A program made the position numbers and the translations under genes. From a virus, in the IMG/VR virus record IMGVR_UViG_3300030406_001933, positions 1-59,352 of that record: DNA of 59,352 nucleotides, one strand, 5' to 3'. Positions 10,307 through 59,352 of the stretch are shown here, one piece after another. Each line of letters opens with the position of its first letter. The first letter of the stretch is position 1. The notes below the pieces were generated by a model that was not told where the DNA came from, made no database searches, and saw only the letters and a program-made list of their open reading frames with translations.

Positions 10307-10561
10307 CTACCAAGCCTTACACGACCAGTAACGAGCTTTGGTCTTAGGTCCAGGATTTGAGCAGTTATGTCTTGCTCTAAAGCTCTTACGGCGTGCAGGT
10401 ATGTTCTTTTTTATTTTCATATTTGGATCCCCGAACCGAACTATCTTAATTTTAGCACCATCAGATACACATACTGCTGATTTTTTCTTACCGCCTGGTG
10501 TACGAAATGGTTTATTTAAACTTTTACCTTTACAAGGACCACTAGCTTTTCTCTTTGCCAC
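10307..10561 (-). CDS. Small basic Cys-containing protein, 84 residues
   Basis: The frame begins with GTG (10559-10561) after AACAGGAGATAGATA, a good ribosome site at normal spacing. The product is highly basic with four Cys residues and a conserved-looking C-terminal half (KKNIPARRKSFRARHNC, then PGPKTKARYWSCKAW) that I recall in many marine phages without known role. Its start overlaps the end of the upstream gene by 20 bases. The conserved Cys and basic residues suggest a small zinc- or nucleic-acid-binding protein. Confidence 0.7.
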   Translation of the reverse strand: MAKRKASGPCKGKSLNKPFRTPGGKKKSAVCVSDGAKIKIVRFGDPNMKIKKNIPARRKSFRARHNCSNPGPKTKARYWSCKAW

Positions 10562-10922
10562 TATCTATCTCCTGTTTAATTACTTCTTTATGTTCTACCA
10601 CAGAATCATCTAGTTCGTCTGCCCTTGCTGCTATTTGTTCAAGTTCTTGTATAGACAACTGGTCTACCTTTTTGTGCTCTACAGAATGTTCGTTAAAACT
10701 GTGGTGTAAATCTGGCATAACTTTGTTCAACATAACGCTGAATAATCTAACTTGTTGGTTAGACCAGTTCTTATCACCCTTTAATACTTCTCTAACTTTA
10801 GGAATATTATTTCTAACTACATCAAGTACAGATCTACGAACTCTATCTACTTCAATAGGAGTTACTGGTGGTAGACTACCTGTTGATTTTACTGGATTTG
10901 GATTCTTTCTTACATTCGGCAT
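10542..10922 (-). CDS. Putative terminase small subunit
   Basis: A 126-residue protein: Pro-rich start, helical DNA-binding-like region at about 24-70 (RVRRSVLDVVRNNIPKVREV then NWSNQQVRLFSVMLNKVMPD), coiled C-terminus and a Lys/Glu tail. Small terminase subunits recognise the packaging site and load the large subunit. Size, helicity and position as first gene of the late operon support this call, but no diagnostic motif is visible. An ordinary late regulator is the alternative. The ribosome site is weak (AGGG at a distance). Confidence 0.5.
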   Translation of the reverse strand: MPNVRKNPNPVKSTGSLPPVTPIEVDRVRRSVLDVVRNNIPKVREVLKGDKNWSNQQVRLFSVMLNKVMPDLHHSFNEHSVEHKKVDQLSIQELEQIAARADELDDSVVEHKEVIKQEIDSGKEKS

Positions 10923-11317
10923 ATCTTATTTTAACCCTAGTTTCAAAAATTGCTACAAAATATATTTATGGTGGGGATGACACACGCGTGACGCAACGGC
11001 GGGTACTACCCCAACCCCCCCATACCGACAAACTGACACAACTTCGTTGCAGAACCCTGCAAAACCCTACGAAAATCTACGATTTTCTACTCCTATCCAA
11101 GGAAATTTCTACGAAATTTCTAGGGTTGTTTTCAAAGCTACGCTTTGGTCGGCTAAATATAGGTCTTACGACCTATATCTCAATCATATCAAGCCTTTAG
11201 GCTTGGTGTCGTACTCGGTTTACTATCCCCTAAAAGGGGAAGGGGTATTATATAGGTCGGAATTTCCAATCGGATTTTCCAAGTTCATAATCACACAAAC
11301 CAAAAAGGAGGCTAACT
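10923..11317. promoter_or_regulatory. Divergent intergenic region with a row of hairpins
   Basis: This 395-base gap separates the late (minus) and early (plus) blocks and must hold both promoters. It contains, in order: palindrome CACGCGTG (10983-10990); TTGCAG/CTGCAA (11047-11062); GAAAAT-CTACG-ATTTTC (11071-11087); GAAATTT-CTACG-AAATTTC (11102-11120); CAAAG-CTACG-CTTTG (11133-11147); ATATAGGTC/GACCTATAT (11157-11178, loop TTAC); CAAGCC/GGCTTG (11190-11205); and TCCCCT/AGGGGA (11226-11240). Three hairpins share the pentanucleotide loop CTACG. Such clustering is typical of replication origins, initiator or terminase recognition sites, or processed leader RNA. Which applies here cannot be told from sequence. 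I see no convincing open frame in it. Confidence 0.75.
11257..11282 (+). repeat. Tandem 13-bp direct repeat upstream of the first early gene
   Basis: TCGGAATTTCCAA (11257-11269) is followed immediately by TCGGATTTTCCAA (11270-11282), differing at one base. It sits about 35 bases before the early ATG, after TATTATATAGG, a possible -10-like stretch. A binding site for an activator or repressor is the simplest reading; an iteron of the adjacent hairpin region is the other. Confidence 0.6.
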
Positions 11318-11686
11318 ATGGACACAACATTAAGTAAAAACGCTTATGGCGAAGCCATTACCAAAGCAACAACGATAGCACAGGCACAACCTGCGTACGA
11401 TATCGTGGTCGGGCGAATGGAGAAAAACCTATCGGGCGACAAGGGGTGGAAGGTTGGTAACAACCTTTCGTTCGTGGAGAAATATGCGAAGCATATCACT
11501 TCACTCGGTGGCGTAGTTCCTACGGAACTGATTGCCAAGGCAAAAGCGTATGTAGACGCGAGGAAGTCGGTTGCGAAACCTTCGGTTTCTGCCGAGTTCA
11601 CATTCTTGCCACCAGCGATTGCTGGAAGCAACATCTCTCGTGAGGAGAAAGCGAAGCTTAACACTTTCTTCAAGGCTCAGAAGTAG
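11318..11686 (+). CDS. Hypothetical early protein, 122 residues
   Basis: First gene of the plus block, with AAAAAGGAGG eight bases before the ATG. The protein is soluble, mixed helical, with a region WKVGNNLSFVEKYAKHITSL near 48-67 and a C-terminal helix ending EEKAKLNTFFKAQK. No family recognised. It is followed directly by a strong terminator, so it is probably expressed alone at a high level from the promoter in the hairpin region. Such first, isolated, highly expressed early genes are often host-takeover proteins; that is inference from position only. Confidence 0.75.
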   Translation: MDTTLSKNAYGEAITKATTIAQAQPAYDIVVGRMEKNLSGDKGWKVGNNLSFVEKYAKHITSLGGVVPTELIAKAKAYVDARKSVAKPSVSAEFTFLPPAIAGSNISREEKAKLNTFFKAQK

Positions 11687-11706
11687 CCACACGCTCGCAA
11701 ACCTAG

Positions 11707-11742
11707 ACCCAGAGTGGACTTGTTCTGCTCTGGGTTTTTTTT
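11707..11742 (+). terminator. Rho-independent terminator
   Basis: ACCCAGAG (11707-11714) pairs with CTCTGGGT (11728-11735) around a 13-base loop and is followed by eight T. It lies 20 bases after the 122-residue gene. Confidence 0.9.
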
Positions 11743-12029
11743 ATGTCTGCATCTTGTGAGTGTAGACAGCAACAACAACAACACAAACACAACAGAATTC
11801 CAGAATTGTGAGCGTAGTTGTAGGGTCAACAATCTACCTGCTACGCAACAATCTTACCATCAGGCATACGCTTCTTAAATGGTAGCTCGCAGATGGTTCG
11901 TAGGCTAATGACAGATGCCTCTGTCAAGAAGGTTGGTGCAACGAGGAGTAGGCACACTGCCGATACTAGCTCTCGGTACACATTAACGAAACTCGTTGTG
12001 CCAATCACTCACCAACAAAGGAGAGGGTT
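11743..12029 (+). ncRNA. Non-coding leader with long stem-loop (11805-11852)
   Basis: The 343 bases between 11687 and 12029 hold no convincing gene. After the terminator a compound stem is visible: ATTGT (11805-11809), GCGTAG (11812-11817) and GTAG (11820-11823) pair with CTAC (11834-11837), CTACGC (11841-11846) and ACAAT (11848-11852), 15 pairs with small bulges. Further ACCAT/ATGGT complements follow near 11855-11900. It may be a structured 5' leader for the next gene or a small phage RNA. The boundaries given are those of the gap, not of a transcript. Confidence 0.45.
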
Positions 12030-26970: not shown

Positions 26971-27050
26971 CCTATTAGACTAATACACTTACAGCATCTT
27001 TTGGACTTCGTCCAAAGATGTTTTGTTAGTAGTTCTAATAGTCTATTAGG
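26971..27050. repeat. Nested inverted repeats downstream of primase
   Basis: CCTATTAGACTAATA (26971-26985) is complementary at 13 of 15 positions to TAATAGTCTATTAGG (27036-27050). Inside lies a second hairpin, CATC...GGAC-TTC-GTCC...GATG (26995-27020). The outer right arm covers the primase stop codon. Could be a processing site, terminator complex or replication element. Confidence 0.6.
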
Positions 27051-35518: not shown

Positions 35519-38500
35519 CTATTTAAATTTTGCAAACAACTTATCAAAGTCGCTAGCCTTCATAGCATCAAATACATTTCCGCCTTCAGATTGTGATCTA
35601 CGACCAGTTTGTTCTCCTGCTAGTAAGTCAGTACCACCTTCTGTGAATACTTTATTACCACCAGCTACTGGTATTCTTCTTAATAGAGTTCTTATGAATG
35701 CTCTTTCTGATGAGTTACTACCATCTCCTTCTACTCCTGGTATTGATTCTCTAGCTAATTCTATACCACCACCAACATTAGCTGCTGCATCAAACAATAC
35801 ACCAGTTGATGGACCACCAATCGCAGACATCATTCTAGCCGCACCATAGTATCTATTGTCTGCTTGTGCTGCTGTGTTAAAGAATAATTCTGCTAGTAGA
35901 CCTAGACCACCTAAAGCAACTATACCCTCTAAGTAGTGACCAAGGAATTTATCTGCATCTTTACCTAAGTTTTGTTGTAGCCATCTATCTGCATCTTCAC
36001 CTTCAACACCAGTGAATACTTTAAATGTTTCACCCACTGCTGTTTTACTGAATTTTCTTTCTCTTAGTGCTGCTTCTCGTCCATCTTCTCCACCTCTTTG
36101 TAGAGTGTAATCTTTTATAGTATTAGCCATCATACCAAAACCACCACCGACAGTTAATAAAGCTATCATTGGTTTAAAGTTTTTGTATTTCCAAGCTTCG
36201 TCTACTACACCACCTTCACCAAAAACCATACGCATCATCATTAATGGGAATGATTTAAGTTGGAATACCATTGAACCAATAGGATGTTGTGCCCAAAGAG
36301 GTACATCATTTGGATCTGGAGTAAAGATTGTTTCGTTTACAAACCTCATTGTAGCGTATCTAAAGTTATCATCTTTGGCTACGGTTTTCATATCAGCCAT
36401 TCTTCTAGAACCAGGCATAGCGTATGCCTCTAGACCATATCTTTTTAATAACCTTAAGGATTTTCTATATGCTGCACTATCTATTTGACCTTTTGCTATA
36501 AGCTTTTGTGCCATATCAGCTTCAGCTTTAAATGTATTGTAACCGACTACAGCAGACACCTCTCTCATAAAGTTTGTCCAACTCTGTAGACCAGTGCCAT
36601 AGAAGAAAGCGTGCTGGAATTGTTGAGATCCATCACCAGCCATATGGGTCATTCTATCGTGTATTAGGTTTTCAACACCTACACCTATGTCTTTAGCTGC
36701 TTGTCTATACTCTGGGCTACCCAAAGTTACATCTTTCCAAGCTTTCATCCAGCCCTTGAAATTACCAGTTCTAATTAAAGGTAATGCCATATCAGGTATA
36801 GATGTTAATGTTGTCCAACCAAGTAGAGATACAGAGTTAAACGCTCTCATCTTTTTACTTACATTGTTTAACATTCTACTATCAGACATTGGTCGTCTTT
36901 CTAGTACATCATTAATACTTCTTATAAATCCTTCAGATCCTTCTGACATACCTCCAGGGAAATCTTTTAGACCATTAACAACTGCGTCTATTCTTATTTT
37001 TAAGTTAGCCATTTGACCTGGGTTTAAGCTACCAGTGTCTGTAAGAGCAAGTAACCTTCGTCTAGCTGCATCTACTCTTGCGTGAACTGTATTTGTGTTA
37101 GTGTTAATTAAGCTTGCTTGTATATCTCTAAGTATTTCTTTTAGATGAGCACGCTCTATTTGATTAGGCGTAGGTATAACTATGTGTGATACTTCAAGTA
37201 CATCATCACCTGTAGACCTAGGCATAGTTATAAGTTTGTTTTCACTTAGTATATCAGCAGCACCTTCCACACCTAACTTAGCAGTTACCGTGTATGCGTT
37301 TAGTCCGTGACCACCAGCACCAAAGTTTTTAGCCATAAGTTTCTTTCTAGTAGTCTTGTCAAAGTATTTAGTAATAATACCTTCAAGATCATCTACTAGA
37401 TAATCTGCAAACTCAGGATAAGTATCTTTGTTTAGTGTAATAAATCTTTGGTAGAACGGATCACTTGTAATACCTGAAGTTCTAGCGTCTACATCAACAT
37501 CAATTCTACCATCTGTGTCTATGATTCTATTCATCATATTAGATGCAATTTCAGCTATCTCTCTAGGATCTACATTTTTACCTTCCATTCTTTTTTCACG
37601 AGTAATAAATCTTTGTAGAGATTCTACAAAAGCTTTAGGATTTTCTCTTACAATATCTGCATTCCATATCTGTGGTACATAATATTTAGTTCCATTACGA
37701 AGAGTAACATCACCAACTGGTATACCAAGATTGTGTAGATCATTTAGTTCAGTTTTAAATAGACCTACTAAATGATTTGCTATTTGTTTTTCTGCATCAT
37801 TAAGATTGCTTATGTCCCCAGCTCTCATAGCTCTTATGATTCTTTTGTGAGATGCAGGAGGAGCAACAGCTTTTTCAGGAACTGCTCTACCTAATAAAGG
37901 TATTGCTTGAAAGAATGGTGCTGTTTTATTTATGTATCTCTTAACTGGATTACCATAGTCTGGTAATTTCTGTAACATCTGCATAACTGGCTGTATTCTT
38001 TTAGCCAAGTCTGCTGCGTGCATCTGATATATACCTGGTCCATCTTTAGGTTTAATTAAATTACCTAACCAAGCTGCACCTATTTTTCTTAGATGTGCAG
38101 AGTTTTCACTGATAAAGTTTGTAGAATAATTCTTTTCAATTACCTCAACATCATCAATGTCTATAGCTTCTTTTCTTAGAGTTTTCTTAACAAACCCTTG
38201 TAAAGCATCTGGCATACCTAGTTTTTGTGCCTTTGATCCTATGTTTACATAGTCAGAATCTTCTAGTTTCTTATTAAGTTCAACGACATCTTGTAGTAAC
38301 TGACCATTTAATGATTGGTGTTTGTCATTCATATTGGAAGCAAACTCAGGATTTACTACACTATCTTCAACATCTGCATCAACGGTTCTTAAAGATTTAT
38401 TATTGTGTATTACTATTGCGTCTACAACATCATTAGTTACTGGGTGTGGTTCAGTAATTAAGAATCCATCATAACCAAGCTGGTTAAATGCTCTAGTAAT

Positions 38501-41500
38501 TAAAGTCTTGGCTTCTGCTTCAGAACGACCAGATGTTGTTAATGTATCTACAAGGTTTTGATAGAAATCAGATCCATCTAATTCACCTTGTAATCTAAAT
38601 TCATTTAACATCCTTGTCATTTCCTGATCTTTGAAAAGACCAGTAGTTTGTAGTTCTTTCATAAAGAACCCAATATCGTTTGGCTCTCCACTTCCTACTG
38701 AATATGTAGCGTTATCACTAAAATCAAACATATTGTCTGCACGAACAAACATAGGAACAACTTTAGGATTTCTTCTTACTTTGGTAAATTGACCTAATCT
38801 TTCAAACAGCTCTTCGTTTTTAAGCATAAGTCTTTCGTAGACCTGTGCATCTTGCAACATAGTATATGCAGGATCACCATCAACAGGCTCAACAATACCT
38901 GCTTCCATTTCATCCATACGATTAAGAGTTGTTTTTCTTATATCTCTACCAGCATAAGCTCTAGATATATCATTAAGCTTATAGTTGTTTTCCATTATGT
39001 CATTAATGATTTCATCTGTAATAGCAATTACATCTGGATCATCAGAATCAACCATAGCTTTCAAAGAGTTCTTGTGAGTAAACCTTGCATATGTTTCTGA
39101 TGCTGTAGGATCTTTTGCTAAGTAGACACCTGGTCCATATAATGAATCAGCATTAGATGGTTTTGGTCCACGAGCACCTTTGTATTTATTAAAGGCATCA
39201 CCATTTGGTGTTCCGTGATAGAACACATAATCTAATAGATTGTCTGTAGACCTAGCGTTTAAGAACTCACGATGTGATAAATCAGCAGCATCACTAAAAC
39301 TAGATATAGTTTCAGAAGCATATTTTTTAGCTAGATGTAGAGTACCACTATTACCAGTTTGGTCTACGGATCTTTTGATTGGGTGTACTGAAGCTGCATC
39401 ATAGTGCATATCTCCAAAGTAAGTTAGGTATCTATATCTTTGTCTTAATTTTTTATTACCTATCATCTTATTAAGAAGATAAGCTGAATGTTCAGTTACA
39501 GAATCAAGACTATCTTCTAATAAAGCAGACCCTGATAGGTTATTGTATAGTTCTCTCTTTGTAGTTTTTTGAGATAAGATGTCATTAAATCCATCAATGA
39601 ACCATTTAACTGCAGCACCTTTAGGATTTGGAACATTAAAACTTTCAGATATTTTAACTGCACGAGCTTCACCAAGTTCAAGTGCTTCTTGATAAGCATT
39701 GTTAATATTAATCTTACCTTCTTCATCAATAGCAGAGTGGTACATTAAGTAACCAACCTCGTCTATGACGGTATATTCTCTACCAACAGGTTTACGAGAG
39801 GCTATTGTATTAGGATATTCAATCTTACTCTTACCGCTTTTTAAATTTTGTGCAATTTTTCTAGCAGTTCTTCTAACTATATTTAATACTTCTCCATTGT
39901 TAGCGTGTTCAAATGTACCATAGTTAGCACCAAAGTAACTTTCTGGGAATAAACCACCAACATCATCCATAGTTAGGAAGTTGTTAGAAGCATTCTTATC
40001 AAATTGAGTTTTACCTAGAATATTTAATAGTCTGTATGTAAATGTTCTAGCGTTGTTCTCAACAAGAGGATCTCTGTGTGTAACCTTTCTTAAAAATTCT
40101 TTTATGTAGACGGGAGTTCTTGCAGGAATCCCGTTCTCTCCACTAACACCTTTAGATTGTTCTACCTCTTTCATCACCATTCTTTTGACTGGTGCTTTTC
40201 TAGGCATTAGATTTAGACCATCAGGCTGACCTCGTAGGACATACATAGCGTAGTCCATTCTAGCTTGATAACCTTGGTTATATCCTTCTTGAAGTAACTG
40301 AACAAAATCTCCAGGTGTGGTTGCAACACGACCATTAGATAATCTTGTTATATTAGGATCTGCTTCTATTGATCTTTGTATTACAGAAAACTCTGGAACT
40401 TCTGGATCAGATAAAAGTTTCTGAACCAGTTCAGCAGTTAGGTCTTTAGTTCTAGCAGTTTGTTTCTTACTTACTTTAGTTTCATCAGCTATTTCTCTAA
40501 TAGACATCTCTTTAGGAGATTGTTTAAGAGTTGAAGATTGACCTTGTTTGCCAAGAGTTTTCTTCATAATAGAGTCAGCTTGTTTTTCTAAATCCTCTAT
40601 TTGTTTAATTCGTCCTGTTAATTGTCTATTAACATTATCTCTTTTTCTCTTAGCGTTAAGAGATCTAAACCTTTTAGTTGATTTATTTTTAGCACCTTTA
40701 ACATATACTTGTTCATCTCTACCAACAGAAGTAGTGATATCAAAGCCATCCATCTCACCAAAGATGTTATGTAACTGCCTTCTTAATCTTTTTTCTGCAT
40801 TCTCAATGTTAGCTAGTACATCAAAAGCTAAAGCTCTTGTTACTGCAAGTTGGTCTATATTGTCAGGAGTTTGATTAGCAGCAGCATTTTCCATAACCAA
40901 TGCAGTCAATGACTTGTTACCACCACCTTGAATATCAGTGGTACCTAACTGCATAGACATAATATCTTCTGCGTCTACATTGTAGTTACCATCATCTGCA
41001 GCCTGTTCTTTTATAAGCCTTTGTATCTCTCTAGCGTTGGCTACATCAATAGCTCCCCGTTCTCCTTTACCAGCAGTAGCTTCTAATGCACCAAGATATT
41101 GACCAGGTGTTGCTTGTGAATATTTACCAGCTTTTTTATCAGCATCAATAAATCTTGGGTCACGCATTTTCTTAGCGTGATTTATAATTTTCCAATACGC
41201 ATCAGTAATCTTTGTAAATGTATGGTAATCAGATTGGTTTCTGTGTCTTGGTACAGAACCATCAATATCTACCAACTCGCCTTCTTCAAAGAATCTTTTT
41301 CTATTGTGTTTACCTTTTCTACTTCTTGTAGGATTGCCAAACCTTTTAGTTACTTTATCTCTACCCCTAGCATTTCTTAAGAAAGAGTTAAGTACGGTAG
41401 CAGCACTAGGTCTATCAGTTTCAAGACCTCTACCACCTAAAGCAGATAAAAGTTCTTCGTGACTTCCATCTAAGGCTTTGTCAATTTTACTTCGTACTTC

Positions 41501-44500
41501 ATCTAAATCCATTAACACAGATAACCTGTACTTGGTTTTTTGATCTGCGTTAGCAAACTTACTTAATAGATTTGCATACCTATTTACAGGATCTCTATCT
41601 GGAAATATTCTTTGGAATAAAGGTATAAGATCTGGGTCTATAGCAGATAGATGTGTAGCTGGAGTAGCCTCATCACCACCAACTCCAAACCACCTTCTTA
41701 TAGTTTCATTTACAGTTCTACCTATTCTTTTCCACATAGACATTACTTCATCGTATGTGCCAGCTTTATTTTTAGCTATGGCATATTGGACGAATTGTTG
41801 TGCAAAGAACTCTGAAGGAGAACTTAATTCATTACCTATGTGTGGATCACCAGGTAGTCTTGCTTTTAGAGCACCAAGATCTACACCATCATCAGTTACA
41901 TATTTACCTATAGTATTCCAAAATTGTTTCTTATGACTGGCGTCTAAAATATTGTTGTAAGCCCAATGTCCGAGTTCGTGCAAGACTGTGATTGAAGGTG
42001 GTAAACCATTAGCGTTTATATTATTTAGATCTAAACCAATAATATTTTGCATACTGCCATCATTTGGTCCTGAACCAGGTCCGAAGTATGCACCTCTCAT
42101 TTGCTCACCTTTAACTATTGCAAAGTTTGGTGAAGCTGCATCAAGTTCAGTTCCTGCCATTCTAGACATAACCATTAAGACAGCATTTATATCTCCTTGG
42201 TTTACATTTGCTGTAGACATAATAGTAGCAAACTTTTGCCAAGATGTTTCTCTGCTACGATTAGGTAGTTTAATACCTCTTGGTATATGTCTTTCAACAA
42301 TACCATTAAGTAAATCTAATTGTCTTATTACAGCTTGAACATCACCTTTTGATTTTAACTTAGACCAAGGTGTTTGTTCTAATATCTCAATACTTGTTAA
42401 TACATCTCCGACAGTTTTATGTCTTGATTTAAACTCTGCATCATTAGGTATTAACTTATCTTCTAGTTTTACATTAGACGCTCTCTGTAAACCAACTGCC
42501 CCTGGCTCCATACTAATATCGCCTTTGGTATTAGTTATTTGTTTTTGTTTAGGGGTTTTGTCTACAACTCTAAATGCTTGACCAATGTCGGTCATAGGCT
42601 CAAAAGATTCTAGTTTTGCCAATGCACCATCTGCGTTAGCATCAACCGTACCTATAATATAATTTTCTTTTGATTGTTTTTTAAGAACATCAAATACAGA
42701 TGAGCCATCAAGTTGTTTTTGACTAGGAGTTCTTATTGTATTTGCATACTCTCCAGTTTCTAAATAGATACTTAATGCTCTACCCTTTGGTACTTTAGGT
42801 AAGTATTGACTTAAAAATGTATTAAGTCTTGGGTCAGCATTTTGTTCTACTTCTGTAGGCTTGACAGTATCGTCTACTGGATTTGATTGTGGTTCTTCAG
42901 CAGCGTTCTCGTATGTATTAGTTTTAGTATGGTCTTTTCTACGGAAATTCTTAGTAGACCCAGTGTCAGTTAAGTTTGATGTAGCAAGCTTTCCAGACTT
43001 ACCTGCTTGTAATACTTGTATTTCAAACATTTCTGGAAGAGATCTTTTAGCAAAATCAGAACTTGCGAATCTATGCACTGTATCTAATTCATTAGAATGT
43101 ACTTCGTAGACATCACCCCTCTTCATTATTCTTCCTATTCTCTTACCTAAGAAGAAAATGTTTTGGGCGTCTGCAATACCATCTATGTTTTTTATTTTAA
43201 AATGATTGTTTACATCAACTTCATATCCTTTGAAGTCAATAACATCTGGCTTATTTCTACCTACTGGTTTTGTATCAGGAGATTCTTTACCTAACTGAAT
43301 CATTCTATTAACAATAGAACTTACACCTAAGTCATAATCTTCTTTAGATATTTGACCAGATGTCAATTCAGAAACGAGTTCATTTAACTCTTCCTTCATC
43401 TTTAATTGAATTGCTTCAGCATTTACATCTTGGTCTACAATCTCTTGTGCTATCTCCTCGTCTACTTCGTCAAGAGGTTTACCTGTGTATTCTTCAATCT
43501 TTTGTTTAGCTATAGCTTTATCTTCAGCAACACCTTCCATATGTGCTTTTTTGATATTAGCCAAAGCTTTTCTGTTAAGTGTTTTAGCTCTAGGATCTCC
43601 ACCTAAATCTTTGATCTGAGCCTTAATTCTTTTCTTGTCGTTTAATAAACCTTTTATCTGCAATTTAACCAAAGGTGATTCTGCTTGGTTTCTTAATTCA
43701 GATAGTGATTTATTTATAGCCCTTAGATCTCTTTGTGCTAAAGCTATATTATAATTCTTACCACTTTTATAAACTAGATTTTCATTACCCGCTTTTTCTT
43801 TTGGAGTAGAATGGGTAAATCTTTTTCTTAAATCTTTAAGAGCTTGTCTTACTTGTTTATATGTAGCAGTGGTATCAGTTACATTGTCTGCAGGTATGTC
43901 GCTTTTACTTTGATATACCTTACCTGTTACTGCATCACCAATTCCTGCAGTTCCTTCTGGTGCTTCTATTCTTTCGTAGGTTAGGTTACTAATCTTTTCA
44001 TACTTACCATCAACTAATTCCTTACCAGACTTTTGTACTTTGTTATGTATGTCTGTGTCAGATACAAGTTTGTATACCCAAGACTTTGTTCCGTCTGAGT
44101 TTCCAGGAAATTCTTTAAACCCTTCTGGTGTAGAAGTTACATCTTTTACATCAATTGTAAGAAGTTCATTTGCTCTACCTCTTGGTGGAACAAAAGTAAT
44201 ATTTGCAACTTTTAATATGTCCCTTGACATTTGATACAGCTCGTTAGCTGTTATATAAGCATCTCCACCTTTATCTAAACTTCTTATAGAAGATTCTATT
44301 TGTGTTAATGCTTTGTCTATAACAACAACTTTATCTGCTTCAAAACCATAGGTAGCATTTTCAACTCTTTTACCATCTACCTTAGATGTTTTTCTTTTTG
44401 TTTTTAAACCTGTGTTAGCATCAATGTATGCAAACTTTTCAAAGTCAGCTTCTTCACGACCAGTTTCACTTCTACTATCTAACTTAGCATCAAGTAGAGC

Positions 44501-47482
44501 TTCTTCAGCAGCAGCTGTTCCAGTGTAGACCTGACCTTTTTTCTTGTATTGTTCTAGTAATGGTCCATCAGTTAAACCATATCTGTTAGCTTTTCTTAAT
44601 AGATTTTGTATTCTACCATTTCTATCTTTACCTAAAGATACAGATGTAGACGCTGTAATATCAATATCACCACCAGCACCTTTCTCTGCCTTGACATCAA
44701 AAACTTTGTCACCAAGTAATCGTCTGTTTCTAACTTTGTCTATTTGTAATTGTACTATTTTCTTAATGAACTCATCATTGTAGCTTCTACCTGGTTGAGC
44801 ATTAGATAGACCCTCAATAAATAATGCAGCAGTTTTTTGTATTGCTGCTTTTTCTAAGTCAGTAAAATCAGAAACATCTAAGCCAGATAAGATTTTATTA
44901 ACATCTGGTTTAATAGTGCTTTTTCTTGCTGTAGGTTTTTCACTAAATAAAAGTTTAGTTATTGGACCTATGCCTTCAGGGTTATGTCTTGCAATTGTTT
45001 CAAGCACCTGTTCAATAGGTGCATTAGGCATATCCGCTACCGTTGATTCAAATAAGGCAGCAGCATTAGTTTCGTCATTGATTACTTTTTCGTAAGCATC
45101 AATTATTAATTTTCTAGAATCATCAGATATAGTTGGGTCGTTGTTAACGATACCCATAAAGGCATCTCTATTATATATACCCCTTAAAGCAAATGTGTCT
45201 GCTGGATCTGATAACGACTTGGCAATAGCATTAACACCTTCAGTACCAATATAGTCGTCTATCATATTTTGTAGAGCTATAAGTCTAGCCTGTTTTCTAG
45301 AGTACTTTTGGTTGTCTACTAAATCTTTTACCTCTCGTCTGAAAGATGCAGCTGCAGCTTTTATATCTGCAGGGTCAAATATTTCTTCAATAAACTTAAT
45401 AGAGCCTTTGTCTGTATCAATTATATCAGGTTTATTAGGATTAAACTTAGGATCAGATTCTAATAGGTCATTAATCTGGTCCATTCTTTGACCAATAGTT
45501 ACTGGCTCTGGTTTTAAATCTGGTTTAGGAGCATCTGGTGCACCTTCATCAGGTGTTGATACTGCTTCTTCTGCTTCTGCAGTACGACCTTCTTGCCTTG
45601 CTTTTGCCTCAGTTAGTTCTTGTTCCCTAACTTTAGCTTGCTCAGAAGAAAGAGCTTCATCTGCCTCAACAGTTTTATTGTTATTAAGAGTTTCTAATTT
45701 TGCATTAGCATCTTTAATTTGATCAGTTACATCTTTTAAATCTTGTTCATATGTTTCTGCTTTCTTAGCGTGTTTTTCACTTAGCTCTTTACCAGCTTTT
45801 GCTTGTTGGTTACGATATGTTTGTTGTCTTTGTAAAAGTTTCTTTCTTTTCTCAAGGTCTGATAAAGTAGATTGTATTTCTTCAGCAGTTTCAGTTTTGA
45901 CTTCTACTTCTTTTACATCATCACCTTCTACTTTTGGTTCAGTTTCTAATATATCTTGTTCAGCTTTTGTTTTTGGTGTTGCTTCTTCTGGTTTACCAAT
46001 AACAAGATTGTCCTCAGCATCTATCCTAGCTTGAATATCATTTAACTGAAGAAGCTTATCAATCAGTCCCTGTTCATTACCGTCTTTGTAATCTCTTAGG
46101 AATGCACCAACTAATTTTCTTTTTTGTAATGAAGCTGCTTCATTCTCTTTAATCTTAGTTTGAGTTTGTTGTATTTCAGCAGGATCTTTTTTACTAGGTA
46201 GTTCATCTCTTAATTTCTGTGTTTGAATATCTAGTGCGTCTGCTTCTTCAATAGCATTTCTAGTTACATATATATTGTCTAATACCTTACGAAGTTTTTT
46301 TGCTTCGTTTATTACTTGAGGGCTTACATCAGGAAACTCTGCTGCAGAGAAAACTTCATCATCAGTTCTTCCACCTTTGTTACCTGACATAAGATTATCA
46401 AACTTAGTTCTGTCAGAAGCTTCAAACTCATCAAGCAAGCCTTTATAAATTCTTTCTAATTGTGGTCGTACATTTTGGTCAATTAAATTTTGTATAACTG
46501 TTTTGTTTTCTGGAGTTGGATTCGTTTCAAAATTTTCTACAGCTTCAGTAAAGTTTGCTTCTTCTTGTGCTTTCAAAGCATTTTGAACTTCTTTATCTTT
46601 TTCTACAAAACTTTGTTTAAAATCATATTTACCATCTGCAGTTCTAGTTAGGTTCCTTCTGAATAAGGCTCCACCTGCAGCACCAAATAATCCACCCAAT
46701 GCTCCGCCAGCGACACCCCCTACACCAGCTGCAAACGCACCTTCTTTAAAACTATACTCATCTCTTTCACCAATACCTATATCTCTAAATTGTTCAGCAG
46801 CGTTATATCCAGCTTCAATACCACCACCTAGTACAGCCTCAACTTTTGCACCTGACTTACCACCTTCTTTGATTGCACCTACTAATAAATTTTTACCTGT
46901 TTGTTTTGCTGCGATTGCACCACCTTTGGCAGCCATTCCACCAACACCCATACCAATTAAGTTTACTGGGTCAAATACAGCTTTTCCTACATTGGCAGCT
47001 AATCCAGCAGCACCTGTTCCACCATCTTCATAAAAATTTGGTAGAGCATCGTAGACACGCTGTAATCTTGATAGCCTTGCTTTTTGAGCATCGGTTGCAC
47101 TTCCGCCTGTTGTGTACCAAGCTTCTTTAGCCATACTGGTAAAGTTCATAGATTTCCAACCACGGTCACTATAAAACTCTTCAATGGCTTCTTGAGGACT
47201 AGAGAATGTTATACCATCTCTGTCTTGAAAGAAATCATATACATCTTGAATAAATTCTGGATTTTGTAAAAGCCTTAGTGCATCTGTTTTTGACAGATCA
47301 CCTTTTGCATATTTTAAAGCACCCGTGTCTGGTCCAGTTGGATCTAGTGATAGCTCTCCATAGCCTCTAGATTTGATAAGACCTGTAAGATTTTTGTTTG
47401 CTACTTCAGGTGCATCACTACCAAATCCTAGATCATCACGAACTTCGGTTGGGTTATTTTCATTTAATATTTCATCTGACAT
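35519..47482 (-). CDS. Giant internal virion/ejection protein with metallopeptidase and ADP-ribosyltransferase-like domains
   Basis: 3987 residues, one fifth of the genome. Visible parts: Gly/Ala hydrophobic stretches at about 155-195 and 250-280; coiled coils about 295-650; ITVLHELGHWAYNN near 1830, a zincin HExxH motif; YHGTPNGDAFNKYKG near 2753 with GPGVYLAKDP near 2782 and FLITEPHPV...VIHNNKSL near 3010, the ADP-ribosyltransferase-like pattern of polyvalent proteins; and hydrophobic C-terminal segments near 3770 and 3860. Position (last large late gene after two smaller internal proteins) matches T7 gp16-like ejection proteins. It is likely injected with the DNA to breach the wall and modify host targets. 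Confidence 0.85.
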   Translation of the reverse strand: MSDEILNENNPTEVRDDLGFGSDAPEVANKNLTGLIKSRGYGELSLDPTGPDTGALKYAKGDLSKTDALRLLQNPEFIQDVYDFFQDRDGITFSSPQEAIEEFYSDRGWKSMNFTSMAKEAWYTTGGSATDAQKARLSRLQRVYDALPNFYEDGGTGAAGLAANVGKAVFDPVNLIGMGVGGMAAKGGAIAAKQTGKNLLVGAIKEGGKSGAKVEAVLGGGIEAGYNAAEQFRDIGIGERDEYSFKEGAFAAGVGGVAGGALGGLFGAAGGALFRRNLTRTADGKYDFKQSFVEKDKEVQNALKAQEEANFTEAVENFETNPTPENKTVIQNLIDQNVRPQLERIYKGLLDEFEASDRTKFDNLMSGNKGGRTDDEVFSAAEFPDVSPQVINEAKKLRKVLDNIYVTRNAIEEADALDIQTQKLRDELPSKKDPAEIQQTQTKIKENEAASLQKRKLVGAFLRDYKDGNEQGLIDKLLQLNDIQARIDAEDNLVIGKPEEATPKTKAEQDILETEPKVEGDDVKEVEVKTETAEEIQSTLSDLEKRKKLLQRQQTYRNQQAKAGKELSEKHAKKAETYEQDLKDVTDQIKDANAKLETLNNNKTVEADEALSSEQAKVREQELTEAKARQEGRTAEAEEAVSTPDEGAPDAPKPDLKPEPVTIGQRMDQINDLLESDPKFNPNKPDIIDTDKGSIKFIEEIFDPADIKAAAASFRREVKDLVDNQKYSRKQARLIALQNMIDDYIGTEGVNAIAKSLSDPADTFALRGIYNRDAFMGIVNNDPTISDDSRKLIIDAYEKVINDETNAAALFESTVADMPNAPIEQVLETIARHNPEGIGPITKLLFSEKPTARKSTIKPDVNKILSGLDVSDFTDLEKAAIQKTAALFIEGLSNAQPGRSYNDEFIKKIVQLQIDKVRNRRLLGDKVFDVKAEKGAGGDIDITASTSVSLGKDRNGRIQNLLRKANRYGLTDGPLLEQYKKKGQVYTGTAAAEEALLDAKLDSRSETGREEADFEKFAYIDANTGLKTKRKTSKVDGKRVENATYGFEADKVVVIDKALTQIESSIRSLDKGGDAYITANELYQMSRDILKVANITFVPPRGRANELLTIDVKDVTSTPEGFKEFPGNSDGTKSWVYKLVSDTDIHNKVQKSGKELVDGKYEKISNLTYERIEAPEGTAGIGDAVTGKVYQSKSDIPADNVTDTTATYKQVRQALKDLRKRFTHSTPKEKAGNENLVYKSGKNYNIALAQRDLRAINKSLSELRNQAESPLVKLQIKGLLNDKKRIKAQIKDLGGDPRAKTLNRKALANIKKAHMEGVAEDKAIAKQKIEEYTGKPLDEVDEEIAQEIVDQDVNAEAIQLKMKEELNELVSELTSGQISKEDYDLGVSSIVNRMIQLGKESPDTKPVGRNKPDVIDFKGYEVDVNNHFKIKNIDGIADAQNIFFLGKRIGRIMKRGDVYEVHSNELDTVHRFASSDFAKRSLPEMFEIQVLQAGKSGKLATSNLTDTGSTKNFRRKDHTKTNTYENAAEEPQSNPVDDTVKPTEVEQNADPRLNTFLSQYLPKVPKGRALSIYLETGEYANTIRTPSQKQLDGSSVFDVLKKQSKENYIIGTVDANADGALAKLESFEPMTDIGQAFRVVDKTPKQKQITNTKGDISMEPGAVGLQRASNVKLEDKLIPNDAEFKSRHKTVGDVLTSIEILEQTPWSKLKSKGDVQAVIRQLDLLNGIVERHIPRGIKLPNRSRETSWQKFATIMSTANVNQGDINAVLMVMSRMAGTELDAASPNFAIVKGEQMRGAYFGPGSGPNDGSMQNIIGLDLNNINANGLPPSITVLHELGHWAYNNILDASHKKQFWNTIGKYVTDDGVDLGALKARLPGDPHIGNELSSPSEFFAQQFVQYAIAKNKAGTYDEVMSMWKRIGRTVNETIRRWFGVGGDEATPATHLSAIDPDLIPLFQRIFPDRDPVNRYANLLSKFANADQKTKYRLSVLMDLDEVRSKIDKALDGSHEELLSALGGRGLETDRPSAATVLNSFLRNARGRDKVTKRFGNPTRSRKGKHNRKRFFEEGELVDIDGSVPRHRNQSDYHTFTKITDAYWKIINHAKKMRDPRFIDADKKAGKYSQATPGQYLGALEATAGKGERGAIDVANAREIQRLIKEQAADDGNYNVDAEDIMSMQLGTTDIQGGGNKSLTALVMENAAANQTPDNIDQLAVTRALAFDVLANIENAEKRLRRQLHNIFGEMDGFDITTSVGRDEQVYVKGAKNKSTKRFRSLNAKRKRDNVNRQLTGRIKQIEDLEKQADSIMKKTLGKQGQSSTLKQSPKEMSIREIADETKVSKKQTARTKDLTAELVQKLLSDPEVPEFSVIQRSIEADPNITRLSNGRVATTPGDFVQLLQEGYNQGYQARMDYAMYVLRGQPDGLNLMPRKAPVKRMVMKEVEQSKGVSGENGIPARTPVYIKEFLRKVTHRDPLVENNARTFTYRLLNILGKTQFDKNASNNFLTMDDVGGLFPESYFGANYGTFEHANNGEVLNIVRRTARKIAQNLKSGKSKIEYPNTIASRKPVGREYTVIDEVGYLMYHSAIDEEGKININNAYQEALELGEARAVKISESFNVPNPKGAAVKWFIDGFNDILSQKTTKRELYNNLSGSALLEDSLDSVTEHSAYLLNKMIGNKKLRQRYRYLTYFGDMHYDAASVHPIKRSVDQTGNSGTLHLAKKYASETISSFSDAADLSHREFLNARSTDNLLDYVFYHGTPNGDAFNKYKGARGPKPSNADSLYGPGVYLAKDPTASETYARFTHKNSLKAMVDSDDPDVIAITDEIINDIMENNYKLNDISRAYAGRDIRKTTLNRMDEMEAGIVEPVDGDPAYTMLQDAQVYERLMLKNEELFERLGQFTKVRRNPKVVPMFVRADNMFDFSDNATYSVGSGEPNDIGFFMKELQTTGLFKDQEMTRMLNEFRLQGELDGSDFYQNLVDTLTTSGRSEAEAKTLITRAFNQLGYDGFLITEPHPVTNDVVDAIVIHNNKSLRTVDADVEDSVVNPEFASNMNDKHQSLNGQLLQDVVELNKKLEDSDYVNIGSKAQKLGMPDALQGFVKKTLRKEAIDIDDVEVIEKNYSTNFISENSAHLRKIGAAWLGNLIKPKDGPGIYQMHAADLAKRIQPVMQMLQKLPDYGNPVKRYINKTAPFFQAIPLLGRAVPEKAVAPPASHKRIIRAMRAGDISNLNDAEKQIANHLVGLFKTELNDLHNLGIPVGDVTLRNGTKYYVPQIWNADIVRENPKAFVESLQRFITREKRMEGKNVDPREIAEIASNMMNRIIDTDGRIDVDVDARTSGITSDPFYQRFITLNKDTYPEFADYLVDDLEGIITKYFDKTTRKKLMAKNFGAGGHGLNAYTVTAKLGVEGAADILSENKLITMPRSTGDDVLEVSHIVIPTPNQIERAHLKEILRDIQASLINTNTNTVHARVDAARRRLLALTDTGSLNPGQMANLKIRIDAVVNGLKDFPGGMSEGSEGFIRSINDVLERRPMSDSRMLNNVSKKMRAFNSVSLLGWTTLTSIPDMALPLIRTGNFKGWMKAWKDVTLGSPEYRQAAKDIGVGVENLIHDRMTHMAGDGSQQFQHAFFYGTGLQSWTNFMREVSAVVGYNTFKAEADMAQKLIAKGQIDSAAYRKSLRLLKRYGLEAYAMPGSRRMADMKTVAKDDNFRYATMRFVNETIFTPDPNDVPLWAQHPIGSMVFQLKSFPLMMMRMVFGEGGVVDEAWKYKNFKPMIALLTVGGGFGMMANTIKDYTLQRGGEDGREAALRERKFSKTAVGETFKVFTGVEGEDADRWLQQNLGKDADKFLGHYLEGIVALGGLGLLAELFFNTAAQADNRYYGAARMMSAIGGPSTGVLFDAAANVGGGIELARESIPGVEGDGSNSSERAFIRTLLRRIPVAGGNKVFTEGGTDLLAGEQTGRRSQSEGGNVFDAMKASDFDKLFAKFK

Positions 47483-58745: not shown

Positions 58746-59352
58746 TTACGATAGAGCAGACCAGTTCTTAATTCTGTGGTGTACTTTAGAGTGGGTCATT
58801 TCTAATCCACACTCTGACATATACATATGTTTAACACCATCAAAATCGTTATTTTGGATATCTCTTACGAGTTGAGTATCTCTACCCGCCATATAACGAT
58901 AGTTCAAGTGATTCATATCTAAGATAAGCATCTCTTGCGATAGTGCACTAACCTGACGGAACATAGGGTGCATATATACAAGAAGATCACCAGCAAATGT
59001 AGTGTATCTTGTAAATGCTACGCCATATGCGTTGTCAATCTGCACAGGTTGCCATCTGTTTTTACCTAGTTCCATCATATTAGTGATACAACGAGGACCC
59101 GCAAAGGCTACCTTTTCGTTTGATCCAAAAGCAAAGATGTCCTCAATTAAGAATTTATCAAACTCTTTCTCAGTCATCTTGTTAGAAGAAGTTGTAGCAG
59201 ATGCACAATCAATTACATTTGTAATCATACTGAACAATCCACCAGTAGTTCTTTTTGGATTTGCAGTTGAGCCGTTAGTTTCACCTCTAGTTCCAAAGAA
59301 AAAAGCTCTTTCAATGTCACCCATATGTAATTTTAGGGCTTTTGTAAGTTGC
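58746..59352 (-). CDS. Major capsid protein, C-terminal part (gene split by contig ends)
   Basis: Continuation of the capsid gene from 1-704. The 192 residues after the Met at 59322-59324 include RAFFFGTRGETNG, TEKEFDKFLIEDIFAFGSNE, VYMHPMFRQV, and end HRIKNWSALS, in the style of SU10-type capsids. The part beyond 59223 duplicates 1-129. Apparent ATG at 59324 is an internal Met, not a start. Confidence 0.85.
   Translation of the reverse strand, partial: QLTKALKLHMGDIERAFFFGTRGETNGSTANPKRTTGGLFSMITNVIDCASATTSSNKMTEKEFDKFLIEDIFAFGSNEKVAFAGPRCITNMMELGKNRWQPVQIDNAYGVAFTRYTTFAGDLLVYMHPMFRQVSALSQEMLILDMNHLNYRYMAGRDTQLVRDIQNNDFDGVKHMYMSECGLEMTHSKVHHRIKNWSALS

Follow-up and report, generated by a model that had tools for sequence, protein, structure and literature searches.

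Selection on hairpin structure at the divergent early/late junction of a CRP-810-type phage genome, a possible structure-coded control region

The window analysed here is an IMG/VR virus record at its full length of 59,352 bp. Its two ends (1-129 and 59224-59352) overlap, matching at 127 of 129 positions, and the overlap falls within a single left-going gene that presumably encodes the capsid protein; given this overlap, the genome is complete or nearly so, opened at an arbitrary point and with slight strain variation. The founder of a marine phage family (PMC11288001), Roseobacter phage CRP-810, has a TerL with 58% identity to the one encoded here, and the window is a CRP-810-type phage genome. 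Genes run leftwards on the left of the site (a small-terminase candidate, TerL and portal) and rightwards on its right (a short gene ending in a terminator of its own, CobS, CobT and an integrase at 20.6 kb), so that the 'early/late divide' placed here by a preliminary description of the sequence is correct as gene orientation. The GC-skew switch that it proposed as a check does occur at 11 kb, yet skew tracks gene orientation throughout the genome and was dropped as an origin signal. The attP of CRP-810 lies at tRNA-Thr, not at the junction (PMC11288001).

The first late gene (10542-10922, minus strand) has a homologue adjoining TerL in 81 records, with the order conserved. Profile searches gave no support for a small terminase, and the predicted structure, all-helical and of low confidence (pLDDT 61), was too weak for a fold search; small terminase is a candidate label given by position. 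The first early gene (11318-11686, plus strand), by position the counterpart of CRP-810 gp01, has the Shine-Dalgarno sequence AAGGAGG (11305-11311, plus strand) before it and an intrinsic terminator at its 3' side (11705-11745, plus strand); gp01 likewise carries a terminator after it. Within the first early gene, 11345-11630 contains several more short hairpins, perfect and with C-GNA-G loops, such as atatgcGAAgcatat.

Between these two genes lies a dense row of hairpins. Counting as perfect those with a stem of at least 6 and a loop of 3-5, the window has seven in 300 bp, between 11047 and 11240, against 0.22 expected from 3000 dinucleotide-preserving shuffles, in which the maximum was three. 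This is the top 300-bp window, a count of seven is reached nowhere else in the genome, and these numbers rule out chance or a composition artefact. The first hairpin, H1, is ttgcag-AACC-ctgcaa (11047-11062). H2 (gaaaatc-TAC-gattttc, 11071-11087; C-GTA-G on the minus strand), H3 (gaaatttc-TAC-gaaatttc, 11102-11120) and H4 (caaagc-TAC-gctttg, 11133-11147) are three consecutive unrelated stems that share C-TAC-G, as the preliminary description had noticed, and H5 (atataggtc-TTAC-gacctatat, 11157-11178) adds C-TTAC-G. H5 stands immediately before a conserved site, E5, which H6 (caagcc-TTTA-ggcttg, 11190-11205) overlaps; the seventh hairpin (11226-11240, loop AAA) is part of an element described below as E7. 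A long-range AACCCTA/TAGGGTT pair (11063-11127) closes a higher-order stem around the two CTACG hairpins H2 and H3, and DNA folding gives a z of about -5.9 on either strand. Intrinsic terminators do not account for the row, since the regions from 52 relatives gave six plus-strand matches and none in the window zone.

The hairpin row as a whole, as first described, is thus confirmed. Eight hairpins had been listed, of which the dense row is real but seven perfect ones are counted; weaker extra inverted repeats are CACGCGTG at 10983 and CAACTTCGTTG at 11039, the latter overlapping the hairpin at 11047. The 13-bp tandem repeat said to follow them is present (TCGGAATTTCCAA/TCGGATTTTCCAA, 11257-11282, 12 of 13 identical) but is the same thing as a hairpin, E8. 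Repeats bearing CTACG on the other strand had also been reported elsewhere: AGCCGTAGCGT is present three times, as exact copies at 809, 1988 and 2010 (0.24 copies expected allowing up to one mismatch), but nothing ties it to the hairpins. These copies flank late genes and are unexplained.

Relatives were collected by terminase searches, which yielded 81 records with a homologue of the small-terminase candidate and, from these, 52 non-redundant upstream regions. A conserved order runs through them: E1, E3 with TGACACA copies, a variable zone, E5, E6, E7 and the leader. E1 (GTTTCAAAAATTGCTACAAAAT, 10940-10961; family form GTTTTCAAAATTTGGTGCGAAA) was found by k-mer enrichment, the 10-mer TGGTGCGAAA occurring in 19 of 52 relatives against at most three in shuffles. 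E3 (CGGCGGG...CCCCCCC, 10997-11021) takes the form of an R'-R-loop-Y hairpin in several relatives and is flanked on both sides by TGACACA (10978 and 11034). E5 (CAATCATATCAAGCCTTTAG, 11181-11200, plus strand; family consensus CAATCATWTCAAN4TTR) is an IHF-like site, with WATCAANNNNTTR at 11187-11199. Placement in each relative used only CAATCAT, and the bases after it were then scored against the IHF consensus WATCAANNNNTTR; 27 of 47 had at most one mismatch, where 0.07 were expected. A putative IHF site, as a consensus match, thus adjoins the terminase genes in the manner of lambda. E6 (GTCGTAC, 11208-11214, plus strand; GTCGTCC in the family) lies 27 bp from E5 in some of the family and 37/38 bp in the rest, a difference of one helical turn, which fits a pair of proteins bound to the same side of the helix. 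These two spacings led us to reject E6 and E5 as divergent -35 and -10 boxes of a general promoter, and a sigma-70 promoter scan of the junction stayed at chance level, with no promoter definable.

Hairpins are conserved across the family as structures. The 52 relatives hold 106 against 15.3 expected, a 7-fold excess, although the relatives fall into phylogenetic groups, so that counts are not fully independent and the p-values given below are optimistic. In different subgroups the hairpins peak at about -165, -135, -90, -15 and +35 relative to E5, with unrelated stems; the -15 bin holds 17 hairpins against 2.3 expected, and many relatives have a hairpin of different sequence at the position of H5. 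Unrelated stems at fixed positions amount to wholesale compensatory change. The preliminary description had named absent conservation in relatives, and stems changing without compensation, as grounds for giving up its claim of selection; the outcome is the reverse, because hairpins are conserved in relatives and pairing is kept despite full turnover of the stems. The family-wide excess and the fixed positions bear the claim out as well, and the comparison, made at the level of sequence, shows selection on structure and also on the order and phase of the sites.

The character of the pairing in the zone from -170 to 0 of E5 argues for DNA. Internal G-T and A-C mismatches are absent from its stems, where 13 mismatches of other kinds occur, and the sense strand folds better in 25 of 49 regions, the antisense in 24. 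Helices that act as RNA usually gather G-U pairs, and do so on the strand that is transcribed. The missing G-T pairs and the lack of strand bias therefore point to pairing at the level of DNA, and the first part of the junction, 11.03-11.21 kb, looks DNA-like, not RNA-like. The loops were also compared. Triloops with d(GNA) on one strand make up 20 of 36 in the region against 26 of 220 elsewhere, and C-GNA-G triloops 13 of 36 in the family's region hairpins against 15 of 220 elsewhere (p 9e-6; 10 of 33, p 3e-4, with the window left out). Loops of the d(C-GNA-G) type form unusually stable DNA mini-hairpins, and the window's CTACG is C-GTA-G read on the minus strand. The idea of a loop kept by selection holds in this altered form: identical CTACG is found in close relatives only, whereas the C-GNA-G class is enriched family-wide.

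The window and one relative, L003, are 98.7% identical in the zone, 87% in the late genes and about 52% at the start of the first early gene, a difference that speaks for the control-region reading given below, although the zone may have been exchanged recently between these two phages. In L010 and L011, where the first early cassette lies between TerL and a relocated small-terminase candidate, E3 adjoins E7 and the hairpin zone is absent; it is not indispensable. Two annotations deserve mention. CRP810_gp63 (L012 149-394; OR671924.1 57299-57544) covers the hairpin region, which is conserved and non-coding, so this gene call is probably spurious. L186 (PANV01000044.1), a phage segment with 97% identity, lies inside a MAG labelled Candidatus Neomarinimicrobiota, a placement that may be a binning artefact.

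The second part of the junction, 11.22-11.32 kb, is the leader of the first early gene, comprising E7, E8 and the ribosome site. E7 (11226-11245, plus strand) reads TCCCC-TAAAA-GGGGA-AGGGG: a Y arm, an A-rich loop, an R arm and a mirror R'. Its arms vary freely in relatives (CCTCCC/GGGAGG, TTCCTC/GAGGAA, CTCTC/GAGAG, ATACCCC/GGGGTAT), with Y and R perfectly paired always, and R' mirrors R, as in GGAGGGG-tt-GGGGAGG (L052), GAGGAA-AAGGAG (L014), GGAGGAA-t-AAGGAGG (L047) and GGGGGAT-TAGGGGG (L051). The mean mirror score is 5.16, against 2.92 +- 0.37 (maximum 4.0) when tails were swapped between sites. R' as a direct repeat or an alternative pairing partner was rejected: the mirror fits better than the direct repeat by 15:3, and the discriminating R' are not complementary to Y. 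The window copy, of 5 triads, cannot separate mirror from direct repeat, and the mirror evidence comes from the relatives. Mirror symmetry is of no use in duplex pairing and is required by a fold-back purine triplex, in which R' lies on Y:R by reverse-Hoogsteen pairing. The discriminating relatives have the order of ITxF class II, with Y, R and mirror R' on one strand, and the window copy is compatible with it. The published ITxF search rule asks for a stem of 6-15 nt and loops of 1-6 nt (PMC4666352); the window E7 falls outside it, with 5 triads and a loop of 0 or 4 triads and a loop of 2, as against several relatives within its size range (7 triads in L052 and L047, 6 in L015). E7 is present only in short forms in CRP-810 itself and in some other members of the family. 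By its architecture, E7 is predicted to be triplex-capable.

E7 lies mostly 60-100 nt upstream of a start codon, on the sense strand, and in relatives it also precedes other early genes, several of them CobS-sized ORFs. The exact pattern has 52 matches in the virus collection, about half in the CRP-810-type family; in those with a start codon identified, the codon follows at 84-93 nt. Copies elsewhere occur without E5 and E6, and E7 is therefore independent of the array. Outside the family, a related Y-R-R' element, CCCCCTAAAGGGGGGAAGGGGGATAGG, occurs in L132, L143, L155, L160 and L161, with no family markers on these contigs. E8 (GGAA-TT-TCC-AATC-GGA-TT-TTCC, 11259-11280, plus strand) comes after E7 and is an irregular hairpin of RNA type. 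Its stems in the family contain six G-T pairs against 0.2 expected and the sense strand folds better in 25 of 35, and E8 is therefore an RNA element; in the alignment L003 has lost the tandem repeat and kept the E8 pairing. No Rfam covariance model scored above its gathering threshold for the region.

Several functions could be served by such a junction. The preliminary description had offered a leader RNA cut at each loop, here taken as one whose successive hairpins are each cut or bound at the loop. The region does lie 5' of the first early gene and its E7-E8 part resembles a transcribed leader, but in the CTACG hairpins, and in those at equivalent positions, G-U pairs are missing from both strands and folding energy favours neither, their loops are of the DNA-stable class and Rfam offers no match, so that cutting at each loop is very unlikely. 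Highly improbable, too, is the idea that the hairpins are N4-type early promoters for a virion-carried RNA polymerase. Short hairpins with C-GNA-G triloops do recall the early promoters of N4, whose loop of this kind, with a sheared G-A pair, is extruded by supercoiling (PMC4496689); such a hairpin with a GNA-type triloop on one strand can be read here (C-GTA-G, minus strand), and a giant protein of the ejected type is encoded. However, this 3987-aa protein (35519-47482) corresponds to the CRP-810 internal virion proteins gp36, gp35 and gp34 joined in one frame, other long family records having open frames of about 2400-4100 aa. It gave no profile, PDB or motif match to an RNA polymerase and lacks the motif set, which leaves a virion polymerase without support, judged by sequence only and with a remote fold possible; nor are the flanks and the spacing after the hairpins conserved as promoter elements would be. 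Single-strand initiation sites of the RSF1010 ssiA/ssiB or G4 type, primed by PrimPol-AAA_25 or another primase, are a less remote reading, though still a fairly unlikely one. A PrimPol and an AAA_25 protein are encoded, the hairpins are DNA-level, the junction is divergent, and in RSF1010 RepA exposes short stem-loops that RepB' then recognises (PMC4234260, PMC4434180). Against this, no iterons are kept family-wide, GC skew follows gene orientation only, and a large stem-loop (26971-27050; apical hairpin with a one-base bulge) sits directly 3' of the PrimPol gene and is kept with different sequences in L091, L093, L100, L123, L127 and L128. A stem-loop in that place is the proposed origin in pRN1 and phage BIP-1 (PMC4234260), which makes 26971-27050 a candidate origin of this type; 16 kb separate the 11-kb array from that place, and the earlier suggestion of a PrimPol origin there is weakened.

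With terminase genes next door and an IHF-like site present, packaging is a serious rival, although we consider it unlikely that E1-E6 form a cos/pac region with an IHF-bent complex as in lambda cosB and that the genome ends here. The junction adjoins the small-terminase candidate and TerL in conserved order, its IHF-like site has a parallel in cosB, where IHF site I1 lies between R3 and R2 (PMC4856287), and early genes on the right with terminase on the left fit a podophage linear map. In the 550 bp upstream of the small-terminase candidate, metagenome contigs end at about five times the frequency seen over the kilobases that follow, with 16 ends in these 550 bp (among them those of L002, L005, L016, L017, L027, L046, L049, L055, L064 and L072). 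Yet these ends scatter over about 500 bp, for which reason a precise cos was rejected, and most contigs, like the window itself, read through the junction. L010 and L011, moreover, keep E3-E7 while the small-terminase candidate, identified by position alone, has moved away.

We tentatively prefer to see the junction as a nucleoprotein control region, coded by structure, that governs divergent early and late transcription, a reading that is quite possible though short of probable, and we infer that it works as a nucleoprotein switch. Weighing against it are the promoter scan at chance level, the E7 copies that occur apart from E5 and E6, and L010 and L011, which do without the zone. Once the phage DNA had been circularised and negatively supercoiled, IHF or a phage protein would bend it at E5, and the short hairpins with C-GNA-G-type loops would extrude, or be captured while the region is single-stranded. 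The resulting nucleoprotein structure would switch two divergent promoters. Rightward transcripts would carry the E7-E8 leader, and during transcription the G-rich non-template strand of E7 might fold back into a triplex. The full scheme of shape-coded control, in which a sequence-free hairpin array and an IHF-type bend form the switch and a covarying triplex is added in early-gene leaders, is more doubtful. If true, the E7 triplex would to our knowledge be the first natural one with three-way covariation support.

Non-B DNA has usually been inferred from one sequence, whereas divergent phages here give an evolutionary test, passed by the hairpin array and equally by the mirror symmetry that a triplex needs; DNA shape, not only sequence, appears to be under selection. 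Whether natural selection acts on intrastrand triplexes or small extruded hairpins is an old question that is now testable with short constructs. In the literature on the CRP-810-type family, as far as searched, no control, origin or packaging site has been mapped, and the junction supplies candidates for all three in a globally distributed marine phage family.

Known systems resemble parts of this junction. PIT/TM_ECO elements, of ITxF class II, run Y-loop-R-loop-R', R' mirroring R, and E7 shares with them this mirror order, a short A-rich loop and an intergenic place (PMC4666352). TM_ECO has one consensus and no strand bias, and a phage association was not found (PMC4666352); E7, in contrast, is shorter (5-8 triads), free in sequence while its symmetry is kept, always on the sense strand and at a set distance before start codons within a phage family. 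With pRN1 and BIP-1 the window has in common a PrimPol-helicase replicon with a stem-loop conserved in structure and free in sequence, but theirs lies 3' of PrimPol and its counterpart here is 26971-27050, not the site at 11 kb. RSF1010 ssiA/ssiB likewise offer short hairpins as possible primase entry sites, one per strand, whereas here they are clustered in an array with no common primer-start motif shown. N4 too has DNA hairpins of 5-9 bp whose triloops are of the C-GNA-G type and which stand where the early genes begin; the array here has 5-7 hairpins, its flanks are not conserved and no virion RNA polymerase is recognisable. Lambda cosB, finally, also places an IHF-like site beside terminase genes, phased with a second site; it differs from the present junction, which has no demonstrated TerS-box repeat, no unique genome end seen and a row of hairpins of unrelated sequence.
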